DNA of 64,000 nt, taken from contig JALHMY010000047.1 of assembly GCA_022843805.1 (NCBI GenBank), positions 1 to 64,000 on the forward strand, read 5' to 3'. The notes beneath the pieces were generated by a model. That model saw only the letters and a program-made list of their open reading frames with translations. It was not told where the DNA came from and ran no database searches. A program made the translations under genes and the position numbers. Positions 17,287 to 25,348 of this stretch are shown here, piece after piece (positions within the stretch are counted from its first letter, which is position 1; every line of letters starts with the position of its first letter). The stretch comes from Fuerstiella sp. (lineage in GTDB: Bacteria; Planctomycetota; Planctomycetia; Planctomycetales; Planctomycetaceae).

Positions 17287-17928
17287 TCATTTCAGATCGT
17301 TGTCACGCTGTGCCCCCAGTTCAAATTCATAGTCCTTCGGATAATTCATACTCCGCAGGATCGCGGAATGCTTCCACGGAACTTCACGAATTCGTTCCGG
17401 AAAAGCCATGAGCAGGCCTCGCAGGCCGCTGTCGTCAAATCGCGTCAGGACGTCGTCCCGAAAGCAGCTGCCAAACAACAGTGGATGACCTCGCTCTCCA
17501 TTGTAAGTGGGCACAAGTATTGCGTCGCGGTTTGCATCATCAGAATTGAATTCAGAAATCAGCGCAGCAACCACTTCCGAACTGATGGAGGGCTGATCTC
17601 CCAGGGCAATCAGGAAGCCGCGGGACTTCGGTGATGCGGCGAGCAGACCGCAGCGGACGGAAGACAGCATGCCCGACTGATAGCCAGAATTGAAGACAAC
17701 CGTCGCGGGTGTGATCTTTGCCGCTAAATTTTTCGCCGACATGCCTTTCAACAGTGCGTCAACGACTTCACTGCGGTGTCCTGTCACTGCCAGAATTTCG
17801 TCGGCACCTCCTTCTGCAAGCACTCCGACGATATGTTCAATGACTGTGCCTTCCCCCCAGGGAAGCGCAACTTTTTGAGTGCCCATGCGCCGACTTTCGC
17901 CTGCACACAGGACAATCGCTGAAATCAT
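17287..17928 (-). CDS. MobA/MocA-like molybdenum cofactor nucleotidyltransferase
   Basis: A 213-residue NTP-transferase-fold protein with the signature LCAGESRRMGTQK near residue 6 and a second block ALGDQPSIS. These fit the MocA/MobA family, which adds CMP or GMP to molybdopterin. MocA (CTP-using) serves xanthine-dehydrogenase-type enzymes, so the MCD form is the more likely product given the hydroxylase genes nearby. Its start overlaps the stop of xdhC by 4 bp (ATGA), so the two are translationally coupled. A generic nucleotidyltransferase is the alternative. Confidence 0.82.
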   Translation of the reverse strand: MISAIVLCAGESRRMGTQKVALPWGEGTVIEHIVGVLAEGGADEILAVTGHRSEVVDALLKGMSAKNLAAKITPATVVFNSGYQSGMLSSVRCGLLAASPKSRGFLIALGDQPSISSEVVAALISEFNSDDANRDAILVPTYNGERGHPLLFGSCFRDDVLTRFDDSGLRGLLMAFPERIREVPWKHSAILRSMNYPKDYEFELGAQRDNDLK

Positions 17929-18761
17929 GTCTGCACCAGCTGAGCGGCGGTTTGCCATGGGCGGACCCATGCATCACGGCACTGGATCAGCTCGGCCGTG
18001 ACACTGATCGCAATTTCGCCCGGCTGATTCGAACCCAGTTTCAAACCGATCGGGCATCGAAATGACTGAGCGGTATCATCCGGTATACCGGAGGCAGTCA
18101 GTTCACGCACGAGCACTTTTCGCTTGGCCTGACTGCCGATCACTCCCAGATAGGGCAGGGCGAGGTCGCTCTGCATAATTGCTTCCAGAATGGGGCGATC
18201 CGTCCTGTGCCCCATAGTCATGCATAGAACAAAGTCTGTCGGACGGATATGCTGCACCTCGGCCGCCATGTCGTCTGTCTGAATCTTAATCAGGCGGGGA
18301 GAATTCGGGAGCAGGTCCAGCCACTGGCGGCGAGGATCAATGCAGGTGACTCGACAATGCAGACTCAGCAGACAACTCACCAGCGCCTGCGCCACATGTC
18401 CGGCACCAAACAGGACAATATGCCAGTCATGCAGGTTGTAAGCTTCGAAGTACAGCTTAACAACACCACCACATGTCATCCCCACATCGCGCTGCAGATT
18501 CCATTCAACGAGTGACGGCTGATCGTCACGTCGGTCGGCCAGCATCTCGCTGACATGCTGCAATGCCTTCAGTTCAACTCGCCCCCCGCCAATCGTTCCA
18601 AACAGCAGTCCATCAGTTCCAACCAGCATTTTGCTGCCCGCGTCCTGAGGAGTACTGCCGATGGCCTGCACCAGAGTCACGCAGACAAAGGGTTGCCCGG
18701 TTCGGCTGAGCTCAGCGAGTTTTTCAATGAATCCGTGTGGTATAGCCATAAATTTCGTCAC
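17925..18761 (-). CDS. XdhC/CoxI family molybdenum hydroxylase maturation factor
   Basis: A 278-residue XdhC/CoxI protein. The N-terminal domain carries GSTPQDAGSKMLV and GTIGGGRVE, both hallmark motifs; the C-terminal Rossmann-like domain begins with VLFGAGHVAQAL. XdhC binds molybdenum cofactor, supports its sulfuration and inserts it into the large subunit of xanthine-dehydrogenase-family enzymes (E. coli PaoD is a relative). It is divergent from the DUF1326 gene and the hydroxylase genes to its right, so it very probably matures that enzyme. Confidence 0.92.
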   Translation of the reverse strand: MTKFMAIPHGFIEKLAELSRTGQPFVCVTLVQAIGSTPQDAGSKMLVGTDGLLFGTIGGGRVELKALQHVSEMLADRRDDQPSLVEWNLQRDVGMTCGGVVKLYFEAYNLHDWHIVLFGAGHVAQALVSCLLSLHCRVTCIDPRRQWLDLLPNSPRLIKIQTDDMAAEVQHIRPTDFVLCMTMGHRTDRPILEAIMQSDLALPYLGVIGSQAKRKVLVRELTASGIPDDTAQSFRCPIGLKLGSNQPGEIAISVTAELIQCRDAWVRPWQTAAQLVQT

Positions 18762-18967: not shown

Positions 18968-19849
18968 ATGATCACTTCCGCGAAATTCGCTGCCTCAGCA
19001 CCTGCCGCTCGTCGGACACCTGCCATCTGGCGAACGATTCTGAGTTCCGGCCTGTTCGTTCCGGCGATCGTAACGGGAATGTTGTTCGGTTCCGGATTCT
19101 CTTCGTCGGCGAGTGTATCAGCGAATGACAACTCAACGACGGCGGAGAAGGGTGATACCGACAGGGAATCAGTCAGTAGAATATCGGACTCGGGAAACGC
19201 GGAAGCGGCTGCCATTGAATATCTTTCAGGGCATTATCTGGAAACTCGAACGTGTCAGGTTTACACGGGCCCCTGCTTTGCCAATGGTGAAACCGGGCTT
19301 ACAGGCAGAGAAGCCATCATGGCCTGGAATATTCAGGAAGGTAAATATCTGGGTGTGGATCTGACAGGCCTGAAAGTTGTCATGGCGGTGCAGGGCACGC
19401 AGACGCTCGGACATGGCGGCCTTCAGGATGCGAAAGAACTACGATCCGTGATCTATGTTGATGAAACTGCCGACGCTCGTCAGCATCAGGCACTCGTGGA
19501 TTTTGCAAAAGCCAGTGCAGCCCATACCAGCCACACAGTTGTTCGAATCTCCAGTGTTCCGATCGAGATGTCTCTGAACGAGTTTAAGCTTCAGGGTCGG
19601 CTGGATGTGGGACGTGACGTTCAGCTGATCACTCGAAAAGCCGGGCTTGCCGACTGTATCTGTTCCAACGAAACGGCCTTTTATCCGCCGCTGACTAAAG
19701 TAGAAAACTTCGCTCCCGGAGTCACCACCGTGGGCGAATTTCATGGCCGCGGACTGGGAGTCAGCTGGTCGACACCGGAAAGCCGCAGCTCGTTTATGGC
19801 CACCTTCAGTACGCAGCCAAAGGTGCTTCAGGCCAGCACCGGCAAATGA
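18968..19849 (+). CDS. DUF1326 domain protein
   Basis: A 293-residue protein. An N-terminal hydrophobic segment at about 22-50 looks like a signal peptide or anchor. From about residue 80 comes a DUF1326 domain, recognised by CQVYTGPCFANGE, TGREAIMAW and GVDLTGLKVV. The family has no assigned function. Its conserved cysteine pair is retained, and an extra CICSNE motif occurs near residue 229. It opens the plus-strand run that leads to the molybdenum hydroxylase, but gaps of 85, 51 and 238 bp to the following genes make operon membership uncertain. Confidence 0.82.
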   Translation: MITSAKFAASAPAARRTPAIWRTILSSGLFVPAIVTGMLFGSGFSSSASVSANDNSTTAEKGDTDRESVSRISDSGNAEAAAIEYLSGHYLETRTCQVYTGPCFANGETGLTGREAIMAWNIQEGKYLGVDLTGLKVVMAVQGTQTLGHGGLQDAKELRSVIYVDETADARQHQALVDFAKASAAHTSHTVVRISSVPIEMSLNEFKLQGRLDVGRDVQLITRKAGLADCICSNETAFYPPLTKVENFAPGVTTVGEFHGRGLGVSWSTPESRSSFMATFSTQPKVLQASTGK

Positions 19850-19934: not shown

Positions 19935-20648
19935 ATGAACATTCGCCGTCTCACCGGGACAGCCCACATCCTCTCATTTGCAACAATCACATTTACCATA
20001 TTCACAGCAGTGATATTTGCAGCGACGTCGGTGCAGGCAGCCGAGTATCGGGTTGAGCCGTTGAATGAACCGGCACCGAAGGAAGAGTTCTCTGATGAGG
20101 TCTCCGCGATGCTTGCTGAAACCGGGTTTCGTGTGATCCGTGGTAAAAATACTACTTACTGCGATATCTGGCTCTGTAAGAAATGGCCTGTGGTTGCGGA
20201 TTTCCAGCAAACTCCGGCGATCCTGTATCCCTTTAAGCCAGGGCAGCTGATCGGCGTGGTGCGTTTCGCTCGCAAGGGTGCCGACTTTCGCAACCAGGAT
20301 ATCCCCAGCGGGTTTTATGCGCTGCGCTATGCTCAGCAGCCTGTGGATGGAGCTCATGTGGGAACTTCTCTGACACGCGACTTTCTCCTTCTGGTCCAGG
20401 CAGAGGATGACCAGTCGGCTGCCAATACCGAACAGAAGCAGCTGAATGTCCAAAGTGCCAAAGCCGCAGGATCCAGCCATCCCGCGATGTTTTCCATGCA
20501 GCGGCTGATTCCGTCTGAAAAGTATCCGTCGATTCGGCATATTGAAGAATCCGACTGGTGGGTCGTGGGAGCCAGAGGAATGAGCGACACGGATCCCGCC
20601 GGAGAACTGGCTATTGAATTTGTCATCTCCGGGCAGGCAGCCGAATAA
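19935..20648 (+). CDS. Secreted protein of unknown function
   Basis: A 237-residue protein with a clear signal peptide: basic N-terminus, hydrophobic core up to about residue 33, then AEYRVE. The mature part has the motif block FKPGQLIGVVRF, FRNQDIPSGFYALRYAQQP and HVGTSLTRDFLLLV, which I recall from uncharacterised proteins in planctomycetes and acidobacteria. No enzymatic motif is visible. Two cysteines (YCDIWLCKKW) sit close together near residue 75. It lies between the DUF1326 gene and another secreted unknown. Confidence 0.75.
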   Translation: MNIRRLTGTAHILSFATITFTIFTAVIFAATSVQAAEYRVEPLNEPAPKEEFSDEVSAMLAETGFRVIRGKNTTYCDIWLCKKWPVVADFQQTPAILYPFKPGQLIGVVRFARKGADFRNQDIPSGFYALRYAQQPVDGAHVGTSLTRDFLLLVQAEDDQSAANTEQKQLNVQSAKAAGSSHPAMFSMQRLIPSEKYPSIRHIEESDWWVVGARGMSDTDPAGELAIEFVISGQAAE

Positions 20649-20699: not shown

Positions 20700-21254
20700 A
20701 TGTGGCCGTTTATGTGGCGATCGCTGTTGCTGTGTTCCATGATTGTCATCTTGCTGACTGCAGCTCAATGGTCTGCGGCCAATAGCCCTCAGACTGTGCC
20801 TGAGGATACCGCCGAGTCTGGCGAAATTGCTGATACCGACAAACCTGCGTTTGAGATGAAGCAGTTTCGCGGGCGAGTCGTTTGGATGGCCGAAGCGCTC
20901 AAAAGAAAATTCGGTGTTCAGCAGGTCCCGGAGACCGCCGAACAAATTCTGGCGATTGAAACGACCAGTGGTGAATTGTATCCGCTGGTGGAAGATGTGA
21001 GAGGCCGGGCGTTTCGGCGAGACGAACGACTTCGATCAATGGAACTTGAGATCTCCGCCAGACAGTATCGCGGCTCACCGATGATACAGGTCATTCAGGT
21101 TTTTGAGATTGTCGGAAAGCAGCGACATGAGCTGGACTACTGGTGCGAGATTTGCGCGATCGCGATGTTTGAACTGAAACCATGCGACTGCTGTCAGGGC
21201 CCGATTGAACTTCGCCGACGAAAAGTGGATGACAAAGGTAATCCGGTTCGCTAA
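20700..21254 (+). CDS. Secreted cysteine-containing protein of unknown function
   Basis: A 184-residue protein with an N-terminal signal or anchor (LLLCSMIVILLTAAQW, about 9-24). The middle, from FRGRVVWMAEALKRKFG, is a small domain I do not recognise. The C-terminus has WCEICAIAM and, 12 residues on, PCDCCQGPIELRRR: a CxxC followed by CxCC. Such spacing can bind zinc or an iron-sulfur cluster, but I cannot tell which. It ends 238 bp before the Fe-S subunit of the molybdenum hydroxylase, in the same direction. Confidence 0.72.
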   Translation: MWPFMWRSLLLCSMIVILLTAAQWSAANSPQTVPEDTAESGEIADTDKPAFEMKQFRGRVVWMAEALKRKFGVQQVPETAEQILAIETTSGELYPLVEDVRGRAFRRDERLRSMELEISARQYRGSPMIQVIQVFEIVGKQRHELDYWCEICAIAMFELKPCDCCQGPIELRRRKVDDKGNPVR

Positions 21255-21492: not shown

Positions 21493-22101
21493 ATGACGGA
21501 CTCCCGGAATAAAACAGGATCCTCGTCCGGCTTTAATCGCCGTGACTTTCTTCGAGGGTCCGGGGCGGCAGCTGCTGCCGCTGCCGTACAGACTCAGGCT
21601 GCCCAGGCGATGCAGGACAGCGGACCAGCGATTGTTCGTGGATCACAAAAGATCGCGCTGAACATCAACGGCAGCCAGCATGACGTCACCGTTGAACCTC
21701 GCACAACACTGCTGGATGTGCTTCGCCACCAGCTTGATCTCACCGGTGCCAAGCCTGTCAGTGCTGACGGGAGCAGTGGTGCAAGTACTGTGTTGATTGA
21801 TGGAAAACCGGCAACGGCATCCACAATACTGGCGCTGACAGCCGTCGGAAAGAAGATTCAAACGATCGAATCGCTGGGTGGAGATAATCCGGATCCGGTG
21901 ATACAGGCCTTTGTGAAGCATGACGCTCAGCAGTGTGGCTTTTGTACTCCGGGATTCGTGATCGCAGTACGAGCATTCCTGAACAAAAACCCGAATGCTA
22001 CAGAAGCTCAGATCCGCGAAGGTCTGAACGGTAATATCTGTCGGTGTGGAACGTACGCAAATATTGTCCAGGCCGCCGTTGCCGTAGTGAAGGGAGCCTG
22101 A
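21493..22101 (+). CDS. Tat-exported Fe-S subunit of a molybdenum hydroxylase, with ferredoxin cysteines replaced by serine
   Basis: A 202-residue small subunit of the xanthine dehydrogenase/PaoA family. A twin-arginine signal (NRRDFLRGSG, RR at 16-17) directs export. The C-terminal helical [2Fe-2S] domain is intact: C148, C151 (QCGFC) and C183, C185 (CRC). The N-terminal plant-type ferredoxin domain aligns without gaps to the family around LTGAK...TVLIDG, but all four ligand cysteines of GCDxGxCGAC...C are serine: S90, S95, S98 and S110. Each serine codon (AGT, AGT, AGT, TCC) is one base from a cysteine codon. The distal cluster (FeS II, which passes electrons to FAD) therefore cannot assemble in the normal way. 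The reading frame is otherwise open and normal. The stop lies 2 bp before the large subunit. Confidence 0.9.
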   Translation: MTDSRNKTGSSSGFNRRDFLRGSGAAAAAAAVQTQAAQAMQDSGPAIVRGSQKIALNINGSQHDVTVEPRTTLLDVLRHQLDLTGAKPVSADGSSGASTVLIDGKPATASTILALTAVGKKIQTIESLGGDNPDPVIQAFVKHDAQQCGFCTPGFVIAVRAFLNKNPNATEAQIREGLNGNICRCGTYANIVQAAVAVVKGA

Positions 22102-22103
22102 TC

Positions 22104-24302
22104 ATGACTGAATACAACTGGCCGAAACGCGACGCATCGACGGTCATTGGTAAAGAACTTGACCGGGTGGACGGCCTGGTCAAAGCTACCGGAGCTGCCA
22201 AATATACCTACGACATCAATCTGAAGAATCAGCTGTATGCCGTGGCACTCGGCTGCCCCCATGGTCACTGCAAAATTAAGTCACTGGATATCAGCGCCGC
22301 CAGCAGTGTGCCGGGTGTGGTTCATGTGCATGTGTTTGATCATGCTCAGCCGGATCGTGAAATTGAATGGGAAGGTGAGTTGCTGGTTGTTGTCGCGGCT
22401 GAGTCCGAAGGGGCTGCTCGCGAAGGGTTGTCCAAAGTCAAACTGGAAGTGGAGAAACTGGACGTCTTTACCAGCGCAGAAGATCTGCAGGCTGCGGAAA
22501 AGGCCGGCAGAACAAGCAAAGGTGGCGGCAAGGTCGAGACGGTTAACGAACCGGGTGACGACGATGACGAAGAAGAATTCGTCGAAAAGGAAATCGAACG
22601 CCTGCTGAAGGAATCCAAGTACGTCGTTGAAGGTTATTACGGAATCGATGCGATCACGCACTGCTGCCTGGAGCCGCATGGTTCGACAGTTGAATGGAAA
22701 GACGGAACACTTGAGGCTCATCTTTCAACTCAGAATGTTTCCGGCACAGACGAACAGTTCGCGCGGGATTTGAAAGTCACTGCGGATAATGTGACGGTGC
22801 ACTGCGATTACATTGGAGGCGGATTTGGAAGCAAGTTTGCTCCCGATTACTGGGGTATTGCAGCCGCGCAGATTTCCCGGGAGACTGGCCGTCCGGTAAA
22901 ATTCATGTTGTCCCGCGATCAGGAACTGAAGATCGCCGGCAACCGTCCCTCCGGTTATATTAAGGTACGGCTGGGAGCAGACGAAAAAGGAGTTGTCCAG
23001 GTCTGGGATTCCGTCAGCTGGGGCAGTGCGGGAGCTCAGGGCGGGGCAGTCAGCCACAGCGTGCTGCCCTACGTACTGGTGCCCAAAAACTATCGCAGAG
23101 TAGCCACGACCATTAAGTGCAATACCGCCCCGTCGCGTGCATGGCGAGCCCCCAATCATCCTCAGGCGTGTGCGATGTCACAGACGGCTCTGGATGATCT
23201 GGCCGGAAAAATGGGCGCCGACAGCTACGATGTTTTTCTTGCAAATCTGGTGAATGCCACCAACGAAAAGGCAGACGTCTATCGTGAGCAGATGCAGATT
23301 GCGGCAAAGCTGATGGACTGGAAAGCCAAATGGCATGCGCACGGAAAAGGCGGAGCTCGTGGTTCCATCGTTGACGGCCTCGGAATGGCGCTTCACACGT
23401 GGGGCGGCGGTGCAAACGAGAGTTCCTGTCTGCTGAAGGTGTATCCCGACGGAGGCGTTACGTCGTTCTGCGGAACGCAGGACCTCGGTTCGGGCACTCG
23501 AACAGTCTGTTCTCAGGTACTGGCCGAAACATTTGGACTCGGCATCAATGACGTGCGAGTCAACATTGGAAGTTCCCGCTATCCAAACAGCGGGGCTTCG
23601 GGCGGCAGTACAACAATCGGTGCCGTTTGTGAATCTCACCGCAGAGCTGCTCAGGATGCTCTCGTGAAGATTTTCGACCTGGCTGCTGCAGAACTGAAAG
23701 TTGCCGCGGATACTCTGGAGGCGGTGGGCGGAAAAATTCGTGACCGAAACAATCCCGCGAAAAACCTGACATGGCAGAAGGCATGCAGCCTGCTGGGGCT
23801 GAAGCCACTGGAAACCACAGCCAGCTACGTGCGAGGAACTCCAAGTCCGCTTTCCAACAGCGGTGTCGCGGGCGTGCAGATGGCGCACGTCGAAGTGGAT
23901 CGCGAAACGGGCGTGATTCGGATGAAAAAATTCGTGGCAGTGCAGGATCAGGGGCTGGTGATCAATCCCAAAACCTGCAAGAGTCAGATTTACGGTGCGG
24001 TGATCATGGGGATCGCTGCCGCTTTGTTTGAAGAACGAATTACCGATCCAGCAACCGGTGTTTTCGTGAACGCGGAACTGGCCGATTACCGTCTTGCGCG
24101 ACTTGGTGATATCGGTGAAATTGTTGTTGAACTATACGAACCGGAAAGTGAACGCATTCGCGGTGTGATTGGAAATGGCGAACCACCGGCAATCAGCCCC
24201 AAAGCCGCTATTTCCAACGCAGTTGCCAACGCTCTGGGTATCCGTGTTCCCGTGATTCCACTGACTCCCAAACGTGTTCTTGACGCACTTGCAAAAGCAT
24301 AG
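22104..24302 (+). CDS. Molybdenum-cofactor-binding large subunit of an aldehyde/xanthine-type hydroxylase
   Basis: A 732-residue catalytic subunit of the xanthine dehydrogenase family, closest in layout to PaoC/YagR. It hydroxylates aldehydes or aza-heterocycles at the MoCo site; the substrate is not evident. Cofactor motifs are present: GGGFGSKFAPD, AWRAPNHPQ, GTQDLGSGT and SGASGGSTT. The catalytic glutamate is E693 in GNGEPP. An acidic insert (GDDDDEEEF, near residue 155) precedes the KYVVEGYY segment. It has no signal peptide of its own, so it is probably co-exported with the Tat-bearing Fe-S subunit, as in PaoABC. The ATG follows the upstream TGA by 2 bp. Confidence 0.92.
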   Translation: MTEYNWPKRDASTVIGKELDRVDGLVKATGAAKYTYDINLKNQLYAVALGCPHGHCKIKSLDISAASSVPGVVHVHVFDHAQPDREIEWEGELLVVVAAESEGAAREGLSKVKLEVEKLDVFTSAEDLQAAEKAGRTSKGGGKVETVNEPGDDDDEEEFVEKEIERLLKESKYVVEGYYGIDAITHCCLEPHGSTVEWKDGTLEAHLSTQNVSGTDEQFARDLKVTADNVTVHCDYIGGGFGSKFAPDYWGIAAAQISRETGRPVKFMLSRDQELKIAGNRPSGYIKVRLGADEKGVVQVWDSVSWGSAGAQGGAVSHSVLPYVLVPKNYRRVATTIKCNTAPSRAWRAPNHPQACAMSQTALDDLAGKMGADSYDVFLANLVNATNEKADVYREQMQIAAKLMDWKAKWHAHGKGGARGSIVDGLGMALHTWGGGANESSCLLKVYPDGGVTSFCGTQDLGSGTRTVCSQVLAETFGLGINDVRVNIGSSRYPNSGASGGSTTIGAVCESHRRAAQDALVKIFDLAAAELKVAADTLEAVGGKIRDRNNPAKNLTWQKACSLLGLKPLETTASYVRGTPSPLSNSGVAGVQMAHVEVDRETGVIRMKKFVAVQDQGLVINPKTCKSQIYGAVIMGIAAALFEERITDPATGVFVNAELADYRLARLGDIGEIVVELYEPESERIRGVIGNGEPPAISPKAAISNAVANALGIRVPVIPLTPKRVLDALAKA

Positions 24303-24328
24303 GCTTGAAGTTAACGGAGGCTGAGAAG

Positions 24329-25348
24329 ATGAAAGCATTTGAATATGCGGCACCGGCGACCGAAAAAGAAGTGCTGCAGCTGTTGTCACCGGAACCCAGC
24401 CGTACGGAAATCCTCGCTGGCGGTACGGACCTGGTAGGACTGCTGAAGAAACTGGTGGTGACGCCGGATCGAGTGGTCAACATTATGGAGGTGGAGTCGC
24501 TGAAGTCGATTCAGGTTTTGCCGGGAGGCGGAGTCTCCGTTGGCACGGCCGTCACTCTGGATGTTATTGCCGAACATTCCTGTCTGGACGTTTATCCGGC
24601 AGTGCGACAGGCAATTCACGGCATCAACAGCATGCAGCTGCAGTGTCAGGGAACTCTGGGAGGAGAACTGCTGCAGCGGCCTCGATGCTGGTACTTTCGG
24701 CAGGGGCGCGGTCTGCTGAGCACGGAGGTTGAAACTGGAGCCAATCGACTGCATGCGATTCTCGGCAATTCAGGACCCGCAAAATTTGTCAGCTGTTCAC
24801 GCATCGCACCAGCGCTGATGGCACTGGGGGCAGAAGTACGTGTGATCGGCCCGGGACCAAATGATGAAAAGCGGCTGCCGCTTGCCGATCTGTTTCAAAC
24901 TCCTCAGAACAACGAAGAACGCGAAAATACGCTGCTTCCAAACCAGCTGGTGACTCATATTATTTTGCCGCCCGTCGCGGGGCGAACATGCGCAACATAT
25001 GAAGTCCGACATGGCGAAGGTCCGGAATTTCCCCTGGCAGCAGCCGCAGCGGCGTTGCGAATGGATCACCGAGGTGTCGTGGAAACGGCTCGAGTTGTGA
25101 TGGGGCAGGTTGCTCCCATTCCGTGGTTATCATCGGAAGCCGAACAGGTGCTTTTGGGTCGAGTTGTTGATGAACGTGTCGCGGAACAGGCGGGTGAAGC
25201 AGCTGTCAGCAGGGCAACACCGCTTTCCGAGAACACTTATAAGGTTCAGCTGGCAAAAGTTGCCGTAAAACGAGCAATCCTGCTTGCCGCCGGACTTGAC
25301 TGTGGTGATTTTCGATCACACGCACGTCAAATTGAAGAGCTTGTTTAA
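24329..25348 (+). CDS. FAD-binding medium subunit of the molybdenum hydroxylase, with degenerate cofactor motifs
   Basis: A 339-residue CO-dehydrogenase/xanthine-dehydrogenase flavoprotein-type subunit. The first flavin motif is kept (LAGGTDLVGLLK). The second, usually T-I/L-GGN, reads TLGGELLQRPRCWYFR. In PaoB-like relatives several cysteines after the RxRC element bind a [4Fe-4S] cluster, and HPSD closes the site. Here only C in RPRC and C in VSCSR remain, and HPSD is replaced by SCSR. The start ATG at 24329 is chosen for its strong Shine-Dalgarno GGAGG; an in-frame TTG lies at 24305. The gene follows the large subunit by 26 bp and ends the three-subunit operon. Confidence 0.88.
   Translation: MKAFEYAAPATEKEVLQLLSPEPSRTEILAGGTDLVGLLKKLVVTPDRVVNIMEVESLKSIQVLPGGGVSVGTAVTLDVIAEHSCLDVYPAVRQAIHGINSMQLQCQGTLGGELLQRPRCWYFRQGRGLLSTEVETGANRLHAILGNSGPAKFVSCSRIAPALMALGAEVRVIGPGPNDEKRLPLADLFQTPQNNEERENTLLPNQLVTHIILPPVAGRTCATYEVRHGEGPEFPLAAAAAALRMDHRGVVETARVVMGQVAPIPWLSSEAEQVLLGRVVDERVAEQAGEAAVSRATPLSENTYKVQLAKVAVKRAILLAAGLDCGDFRSHARQIEELV

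Follow-up and report, generated by a model that had tools for sequence, protein, structure and literature searches.

Organization of the locus

The window, by which we mean the whole stretch of 64,000 nucleotides analysed, encodes a trio of Fe-S, Moco-binding and FAD subunits. The trio is preceded on the same strand by genes for a DUF1326 protein and for two proteins here called c6 and c7, in that order, and genes for an XdhC-type chaperone and a MocA-like protein lie upstream on the opposite strand, the only nearby genes that bear on the MCD cofactor. The features are as follows.

17287–17970, minus strand: MocA/MobA-like NTP transferase, Moco cytidylyltransferase-like, scoring below the curated cut-off
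17925–18761, minus strand: XdhC-type Moco chaperone
18968–19849, plus strand: DUF1326 protein
19935–20648, plus strand: c6, exported-looking, without a family match
20700–21254, plus strand: c7, exported-looking, of no known family, with a CxxC-x9-CxCC motif
21493–22101, plus strand: PaoA/CoxS-like Fe-S subunit, 202 residues, with an empty FeS II site
21532–21588, plus strand: Tat signal, residues 14–32 (Pfam PF10518)
21646–21858, plus strand: ferredoxin-like FeS II domain, residues 52–122, ligands lost and predicted fold kept
21760–21762, plus strand: FeS II ligand position 1, Ser90 (AGT, DNA read directly)
21775–21777, plus strand: FeS II ligand position 2, Ser95 (AGT, DNA read directly)
21784–21786, plus strand: FeS II ligand position 3, Ser98 (AGT, DNA read directly)
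21820–21822, plus strand: FeS II ligand position 4, Ser110 (TCC, DNA read directly)
21934–22047, plus strand: FeS I ligand stretch, with Cys148, Cys151, Cys183 and Cys185 kept
22104–24302, plus strand: large Moco-binding subunit with intact GGGFG and catalytic Glu motifs
24305–25348, plus strand: FAD subunit, FAD loop AGGTDL intact

The listed start of the FAD subunit is the TTG at 24305, and the ATG at 24329 is likelier. Pfam recognizes a full-length Fer2_2 (FeS I) domain and the Tat signal in the Fe-S subunit, and from this signal the enzyme is apparently exported to the periplasm; c6 and c7, from their hydrophobic N-termini, are likewise exported-looking. The trio possesses the helical FeS I domain, complete with four cysteines, a Moco subunit with the Glu and GGGFG motifs, which we take to play their usual roles at the active site, and an FAD subunit with FAD-binding loops, all features of the xanthine oxidase family. 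In NCBIfam the Fe-S subunit scores best with PaoA and the Moco subunit with PaoC, both below curated cut-offs (151.5 versus 322 bits for the PaoA equivalog NF008514). The genome (172 contigs, listed as 100% complete) contains one Fer2_2 and one MoCoBD_1 match, both within the trio, which appears to be its sole enzyme of this family.

The FeS II site has lost its ligands

The family feature that is absent is the set of FeS II cysteine ligands, whose sites read SSSS. When phmmer aligns the protein with solved Fe-S subunits, the ligand loop is free of gaps in the three alignments listed and the four serines fall on the ferredoxin-type ligand places, and the DNA places each of codons 90, 95, 98 and 110 one base change from Cys. 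Cys148, Cys151, Cys183 and Cys185 align on the FeS I places; the FeS I and FeS II roles of the aligned positions are those presumed for the family and marked by the Cys columns of the orthologs. The original prediction had claimed just this: serine at all four ferredoxin-cluster cysteines, a gap-free alignment with codons AGT, AGT, AGT and TCC one base from Cys, and retention of the helical cluster's cysteines. Direct reading of the DNA, the alignments to solved subunits and the ortholog columns bear out each point. The comparison with orthologs that it had called for came out on the same side. The serines arise neither from chance nor from assembly error, because a genome of the same genus (74% identity) also reads SSSS and many further genomes carry the same type.

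The fold of the FeS II domain is predicted to be retained despite the ligand loss. Modelled with AlphaFold2, the window subunit retains the ferredoxin fold with a pLDDT of 88.9 and superimposes on PDB entries with TM scores of 0.89 (CODH, 1ffu_D, the best) and 0.87 (PaoA, 5g5g_A), though the input alignment includes four-Cys relatives that may pull the model toward the holo fold. The model of an Asp-type subunit (defined below) is similar (pLDDT 88.4), with a less certain loop block (64).

Distribution of ligand types

Searches with the window's Fe-S protein covered 59 relatives, 47 of which gave any match. Further searches covered 170 genomes of the family (78 matched at E 1e-42), 397 of the class, partly including the family (149 matched at 1e-44), 392 of the phylum (13 matched at 1e-50) and the named genome collection, which gave 64 loci. 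Ligand types were read for close matches; among weaker matches or paralogs in the same genomes, only those of L119–L121 were read. We call S type those loci with mostly Ser at the four sites and at most one Cys, and Asp type those with Asp at position 98 (in the 136-locus tree set; in an earlier 82-locus set, those that were neither four-Cys nor [ST]SSS).

All 78 matching family genomes were read, and 6, including the window's, are of S type, 30 of Asp type and 42 four-Cys. The 98 matching class genomes outside the family, again all read, comprise 24 of S type, 74 four-Cys and none of Asp type, so that among the 78 family and 98 other class genomes the Asp type is seen in the window's family only. 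The S type is spread over nine families (survey codes f1, f5, f12, f13, f14, f16, f19, f22 and f23). Elsewhere in the phylum, beyond the class, the seven matches are all four-Cys, as are 61 of the 64 named loci, the other three being of S type; in 6 of these 61 the pairwise alignment shifts the fourth Cys by a gap of one residue. Ligand type (Ser-like, Asp or four-Cys) is uniform inside every genus with at least two genomes read. Three g53 genomes (L119, L120 and L121) carry a second, four-Cys trio a few kb from the Ser-type one, so that one cell has genes for a two-cluster enzyme as well. In one four-Cys locus (L154, genome G011) an in-frame TAA interrupts the Fe-S gene, an assembly error or a pseudogene.

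The ligand strings vary within both loss types. S-type strings in the 136 rows are SSSS (15), SSSN (3), SCSA (3), TSSS, CSSA, STSS, AVSG, CSAN, SSAA and SSSA, and the residues of the window clade are S/T/A/C, S/C/T/V, S/A and S/A/N/G by site. Asp-type strings are DSDS, QDDG, DDDG, KDDG, SDDS, EADN, ELDG, DADG, GDDG, EDDS and DTDS, that is D/Q/K/E/G/S, D/S/A/L/T, D and G/S/N, and Asp98 is found in all 27 Asp-group rows of the 82-locus set (24/24 after thinning). No partial set of ligand cysteines was found in the 82-locus set; in L133 and its three sisters a Cys adjoins the second site and is not on it. The four FeS I cysteines are found in every locus read, bar four loci whose match ends early; in genomes G029 and G132 the contig ends ahead of the last two.

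Loss of the ligands has recurred

The tree set comprises 136 of 146 candidate loci (the window, L053–L077, L117–L176 and L200–L259). Nine were removed because they were duplicates, strays or not long enough, and L168 (an Asp-type locus, DVDG) for want of a Moco gene; 43 class loci read later stand outside the set. Trees were built from the three subunits with the ligand columns excluded. The 136 comprise 79 four-Cys, 28 S-type and 29 Asp-type loci. The multiple alignment of the first set places L133, L141, L145, L147 and L125 one column off, and types were taken from pairwise alignments instead.

The S type forms one clade (support 100/100 on 68 rows and 100 on 136 rows). It is nested in a larger clade, every outgroup of which is four-Cys. 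On the tree Asp-type rows intermingle with four-Cys ones, an indication that FeS II loss recurred. The 68-row tree holds seven changes between four-Cys and loss (bootstrap 5–95%, 6–9 for this grouping), at least four of them forced by well supported branches, and the quick tree of 136 rows holds eight. Without any regain of Cys the quick tree needs nine losses, a figure that is not firm since many inner forks are weak. A single origin of the Asp-type rows is rejected (AU test, log-likelihood 739 lower), and so is a single clade of ingroup four-Cys rows, as a single regain would give (679 lower), each group having been named after the trees were seen. The Fe-S gene alone gives nine changes with weaker support and again places the L133 group among four-Cys rows, a position that favours loss in place rather than gene exchange. 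Gene exchange may nonetheless lie behind the pattern of types, and the S and Asp types may share a first loss followed by later regain.

The emptied enzyme is maintained

NG86 estimates of dN/dS over the FeS II domain are 0.03–0.13 in six S pairs, 0.02–0.12 in ten Asp pairs and 0.015–0.135 in eleven four-Cys pairs, all of them hand-chosen and the widest near saturation at synonymous sites. By this measure strong purifying selection acts on the emptied domain. Moreover, the catalytic Glu column holds Glu in 27/27 S, 25/26 Asp and 75/75 four-Cys rows with a residue there, and the FAD gene lies immediately downstream in the same orientation in 25/25 S-type, 23/24 Asp-type and 70/70 four-Cys loci with contig room; at the exception, L145, the Moco match is cut short and an FAD gene is present. 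The low dN/dS, the intact motifs and the kept gene module agree with the claim of the original prediction that this is not simple decay.

The FAD loop core GG[TS]D is kept in 25/25 S-type rows. The core of AGGTDL is altered only among Asp-type rows, in 8 of 26 (L122, L123, L131, L138, L144, L151, L156 and L125; for example AAGTDL, ASGMDL and AGGIDQ), belonging to one Asp lineage plus L125, which suggests that FAD may matter less there. The ratio of FAD- to Mo-subunit branch length is 1.56 in S, 1.28 in Asp and 1.22 in ingroup four-Cys rows and 1.07 in outgroups, and that of FeS II- to FeS I-domain branch length is 1.84, 1.65, 1.38 and 1.30, respectively. No Moco or FAD subunit column splits Asp-type from four-Cys rows well, the best mutual information being 0.55 over 24 and 21 thinned rows, in an alignment that after thinning retains two of the four shifted rows and L125. 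Nor did the subunits of the thinned first set show a replacement Cys column that the two loss types share and four-Cys rows lack. Cysteines seen in S rows only occur in the Moco subunit of that set at column 469 (all 7 rows) and at columns 456 and 56 (71%), in window residue numbering.

Accessory genes accompany every ligand type

Of the 170 family genomes, 78 possess the Fe-S gene, 72 DUF1326, 71 c6 and 70 c7; 64 contain all four and 88 none, a pattern whose Fisher p-values are inflated by kinship. c7 is found in 66 of the 78 genomes that have the Fe-S gene and in 4 of the 92 that lack it, closely tracking the enzyme even when unlinked, and DUF1326 and c6 are found in 69 and 68 of the 78. By type, all three genes are present in 6/6 S-type family genomes; the 30 Asp-type genomes have c7 in 27, c6 in 27 and DUF1326 in 28, and the 42 four-Cys genomes have them in 33, 35 and 35. 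Eight genomes possess the Fe-S gene without any of the three. Outside the family, c7 occurs in 23 of 24 S-type genomes, often on a separate contig. Enzymes with and without FeS II thus appear mostly to share one accessory module. The C-x2-C-x9-C-x-C-C motif of c7 is invariant in 8/8 aligned sequences; no relative of c7 was found at a meaningful score in Pfam, NCBIfam or the PDB (best E 0.024), and no paper on DUF1326 was found in the open-licence literature.

Two candidates for a loss-specific partner were set aside. c7 is linked to 18/38 loss and 2/23 four-Cys loci, a difference that is not significant on independent pairs, and the gene is also present in 33/42 four-Cys genomes. A CxxCH ORF, as expected of a nearby c-type cytochrome acceptor, lies near 13/22 S, 6/16 Asp and 16/23 four-Cys loci, with no enrichment.

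A possible path for electrons without FeS II

Electron transfer from Mo to FeS I, FeS II and FAD is the textbook chain of the xanthine oxidase family, whose enzymes are described with two [2Fe-2S] clusters. The chain is given in this order in the available text of PMC3509653, and that of PMC8305194 gives linear neighbour distances in Kdh of 13.5, 13.8 and 10.8 Å. Our tentative preference, which we hold with somewhat less than even confidence, is that FeS II is a dispensable relay and that FeS I passes electrons straight to FAD over a longer gap. The window gene would then encode a working subunit of a periplasmic molybdo-flavoenzyme that has given up its second [2Fe-2S] cluster and nothing else. 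The ferredoxin fold would persist between the other subunits as a scaffold, with Ser98 or Asp98 capping the emptied loop and perhaps satisfying backbone amides that formerly faced the cluster. Electrons would move from Mo to FeS I to FAD by long-range tunnelling, slower without the relay yet fast enough for a slow enzyme. We favour direct transfer because the window clade retains the FAD subunit together with its loop and nothing else has changed consistently; the lack of a Moco or FAD column separating Asp-type from four-Cys rows is also as expected if the relay was simply dropped. The uniform type inside genera, the FAD gene next to the Moco gene at nearly all loci, the low dN/dS of the emptied domain and its predicted fold speak on the same side. 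We would guess that loss was favoured by iron saving or by the removal of an oxidation-prone cluster from the periplasm.

The length of the gap bears on this preference. We estimate it, without FeS II, at roughly 18–24 Å. A tunnelling rule, with zero driving force and a reorganisation energy of 0.7 eV assumed, yields ~150 transfers per second at 18 Å, 10 at 20 Å and <1 at 22–24 Å. The shorter distances would be tolerable for a slow enzyme, but the last value counts against a dispensable relay, as do the slightly raised FAD/Mo branch-length ratio of the S type and the altered FAD loops of one Asp lineage and L125. A further point against it is that elsewhere the cluster of the FeS II domain matters for folding, because rat XOR carrying Cys43Ser or Cys51Ala is insoluble or monomeric according to the available text of PMC3509653, which labels these residues components of Fe/S I in one sentence and ligands of Fe/S II in a table.

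Electrons might instead leave FeS I for a periplasmic acceptor, possibly c7, with the FeS II/FAD branch becoming structural only. The near restriction of c7 to family genomes with the enzyme (66/78 versus 4/92), its presence in 23/24 further S-type genomes and its invariant cysteines speak for this exit, and the FAD loops altered in 8/26 Asp-type rows favour an exit ahead of FAD in those enzymes. On the other hand, c7 accompanies four-Cys enzymes too (33/42), so that it cannot have arisen as a replacement for FeS II, its linkage to loss is not significant on independent pairs, S-type FAD loops are intact (25/25), and c7 is no more than a putative redox partner; we consider such a bypass rather unlikely. 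Less likely again is a staged version, in which a clade would pass its electrons from FeS I to c7, a partner common to all types, so that the FeS II–FAD branch could decay repeatedly and independently, the cluster first and the FAD loop next. That a different cofactor, or an unusual cluster ligated by Ser or Asp, fills the site is improbable. The constancy of Asp98 (27/27, or 24/24 thinned) would fit it, but the four positions vary among relatives and no full ligand set is conserved, and a serine-ligated cluster was set aside since relatives read AVSG, SSAA and SSSN.

A reaction with no net electron exit, either redox-neutral or with electrons returned to the substrate, would account for the loss of FeS II beside an intact Moco and FeS I; it is more doubtful still, since the FAD subunit is retained under selection and the whole chain persists in four-Cys relatives that share these accessory genes. 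Beyond the missing ligands and the raised FeS II- to FeS I-domain branch length, nothing was found to favour a dead or decaying protein or a sequencing error. Against it, 57 of the 136 rows, taken from many assemblies, lack the ligand set, 16 loss pairs show the same low dN/dS as the 11 four-Cys pairs, and the window genome keeps the gene although no second match of this kind is found there; we regard it as very improbable. Indeed, purifying selection, the retained Moco and FAD genes and the accessory genes found with every type make it unlikely that the protein is dead or that it holds an all-serine cluster. The original prediction had offered an alternative electron exit, a different cofactor or a dead end as consequences of FeS II loss. 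An altered path survives from this list. The dead end falls to the dN/dS of 0.02–0.13 in loss pairs, the intact catalytic motifs and the retained module, and a different metal cofactor is unlikely given that three of the four positions vary freely among relatives (AVSG, SSAA, SSSN, QDDG, KDDG, ELDG). Transfer from FeS I to FAD across the gap, and a loss that is clade-wide and repeated, lie beyond those options.

The repeated, selected natural loss of one relay from an enzyme that keeps its flavin gene is a natural test of whether the relay is needed. Matched pairs are at hand (the L133 group versus L167, and L128 versus L172) and could show the role of each cluster, the distance over which electrons jump and why a periplasmic enzyme discards iron.

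Comparison with known enzymes

None of the titles and abstract openings among the matches listed, from open-licence literature, describes a natural loss of FeS II in an enzyme of the xanthine oxidase family, and the window enzyme is probably a new variant in this respect. By homology the window trio is a xanthine oxidase family enzyme in a PaoABC-like setting that lacks one defining feature, the FeS II ligands, and for this reason we do not file it as a canonical member. It shares with E. coli PaoABC a Tat-signal Fe-S subunit, FAD and Moco subunits and a gene for an XdhC-type chaperone. It also contains a CWYFR stretch in the FAD subunit and DLGxGTRT in the Moco subunit, which we take to be characteristic of PaoB and PaoC, respectively. 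It differs in that PaoA binds two [2Fe-2S] clusters (in the available text of PMC2997495 and PMC3958847), whereas the window subunit has ligands for FeS I only. The four-Cys orthologs of planctomycetes, acidobacteria and verrucomicrobia have the same three-gene order, with DUF1326, c6 and c7 adjoining some loci or sitting elsewhere in the genome, but their FeS II cysteines are complete (79/136 rows). A shortened cofactor chain is also found in another enzyme of the family, the aldehyde oxidoreductase of Desulfovibrio gigas, which keeps both clusters. That enzyme is without an FAD domain (available text of PMC2997495 and PMC3958847) and is thus the reverse of the window case, with the FAD domain missing and the clusters kept.
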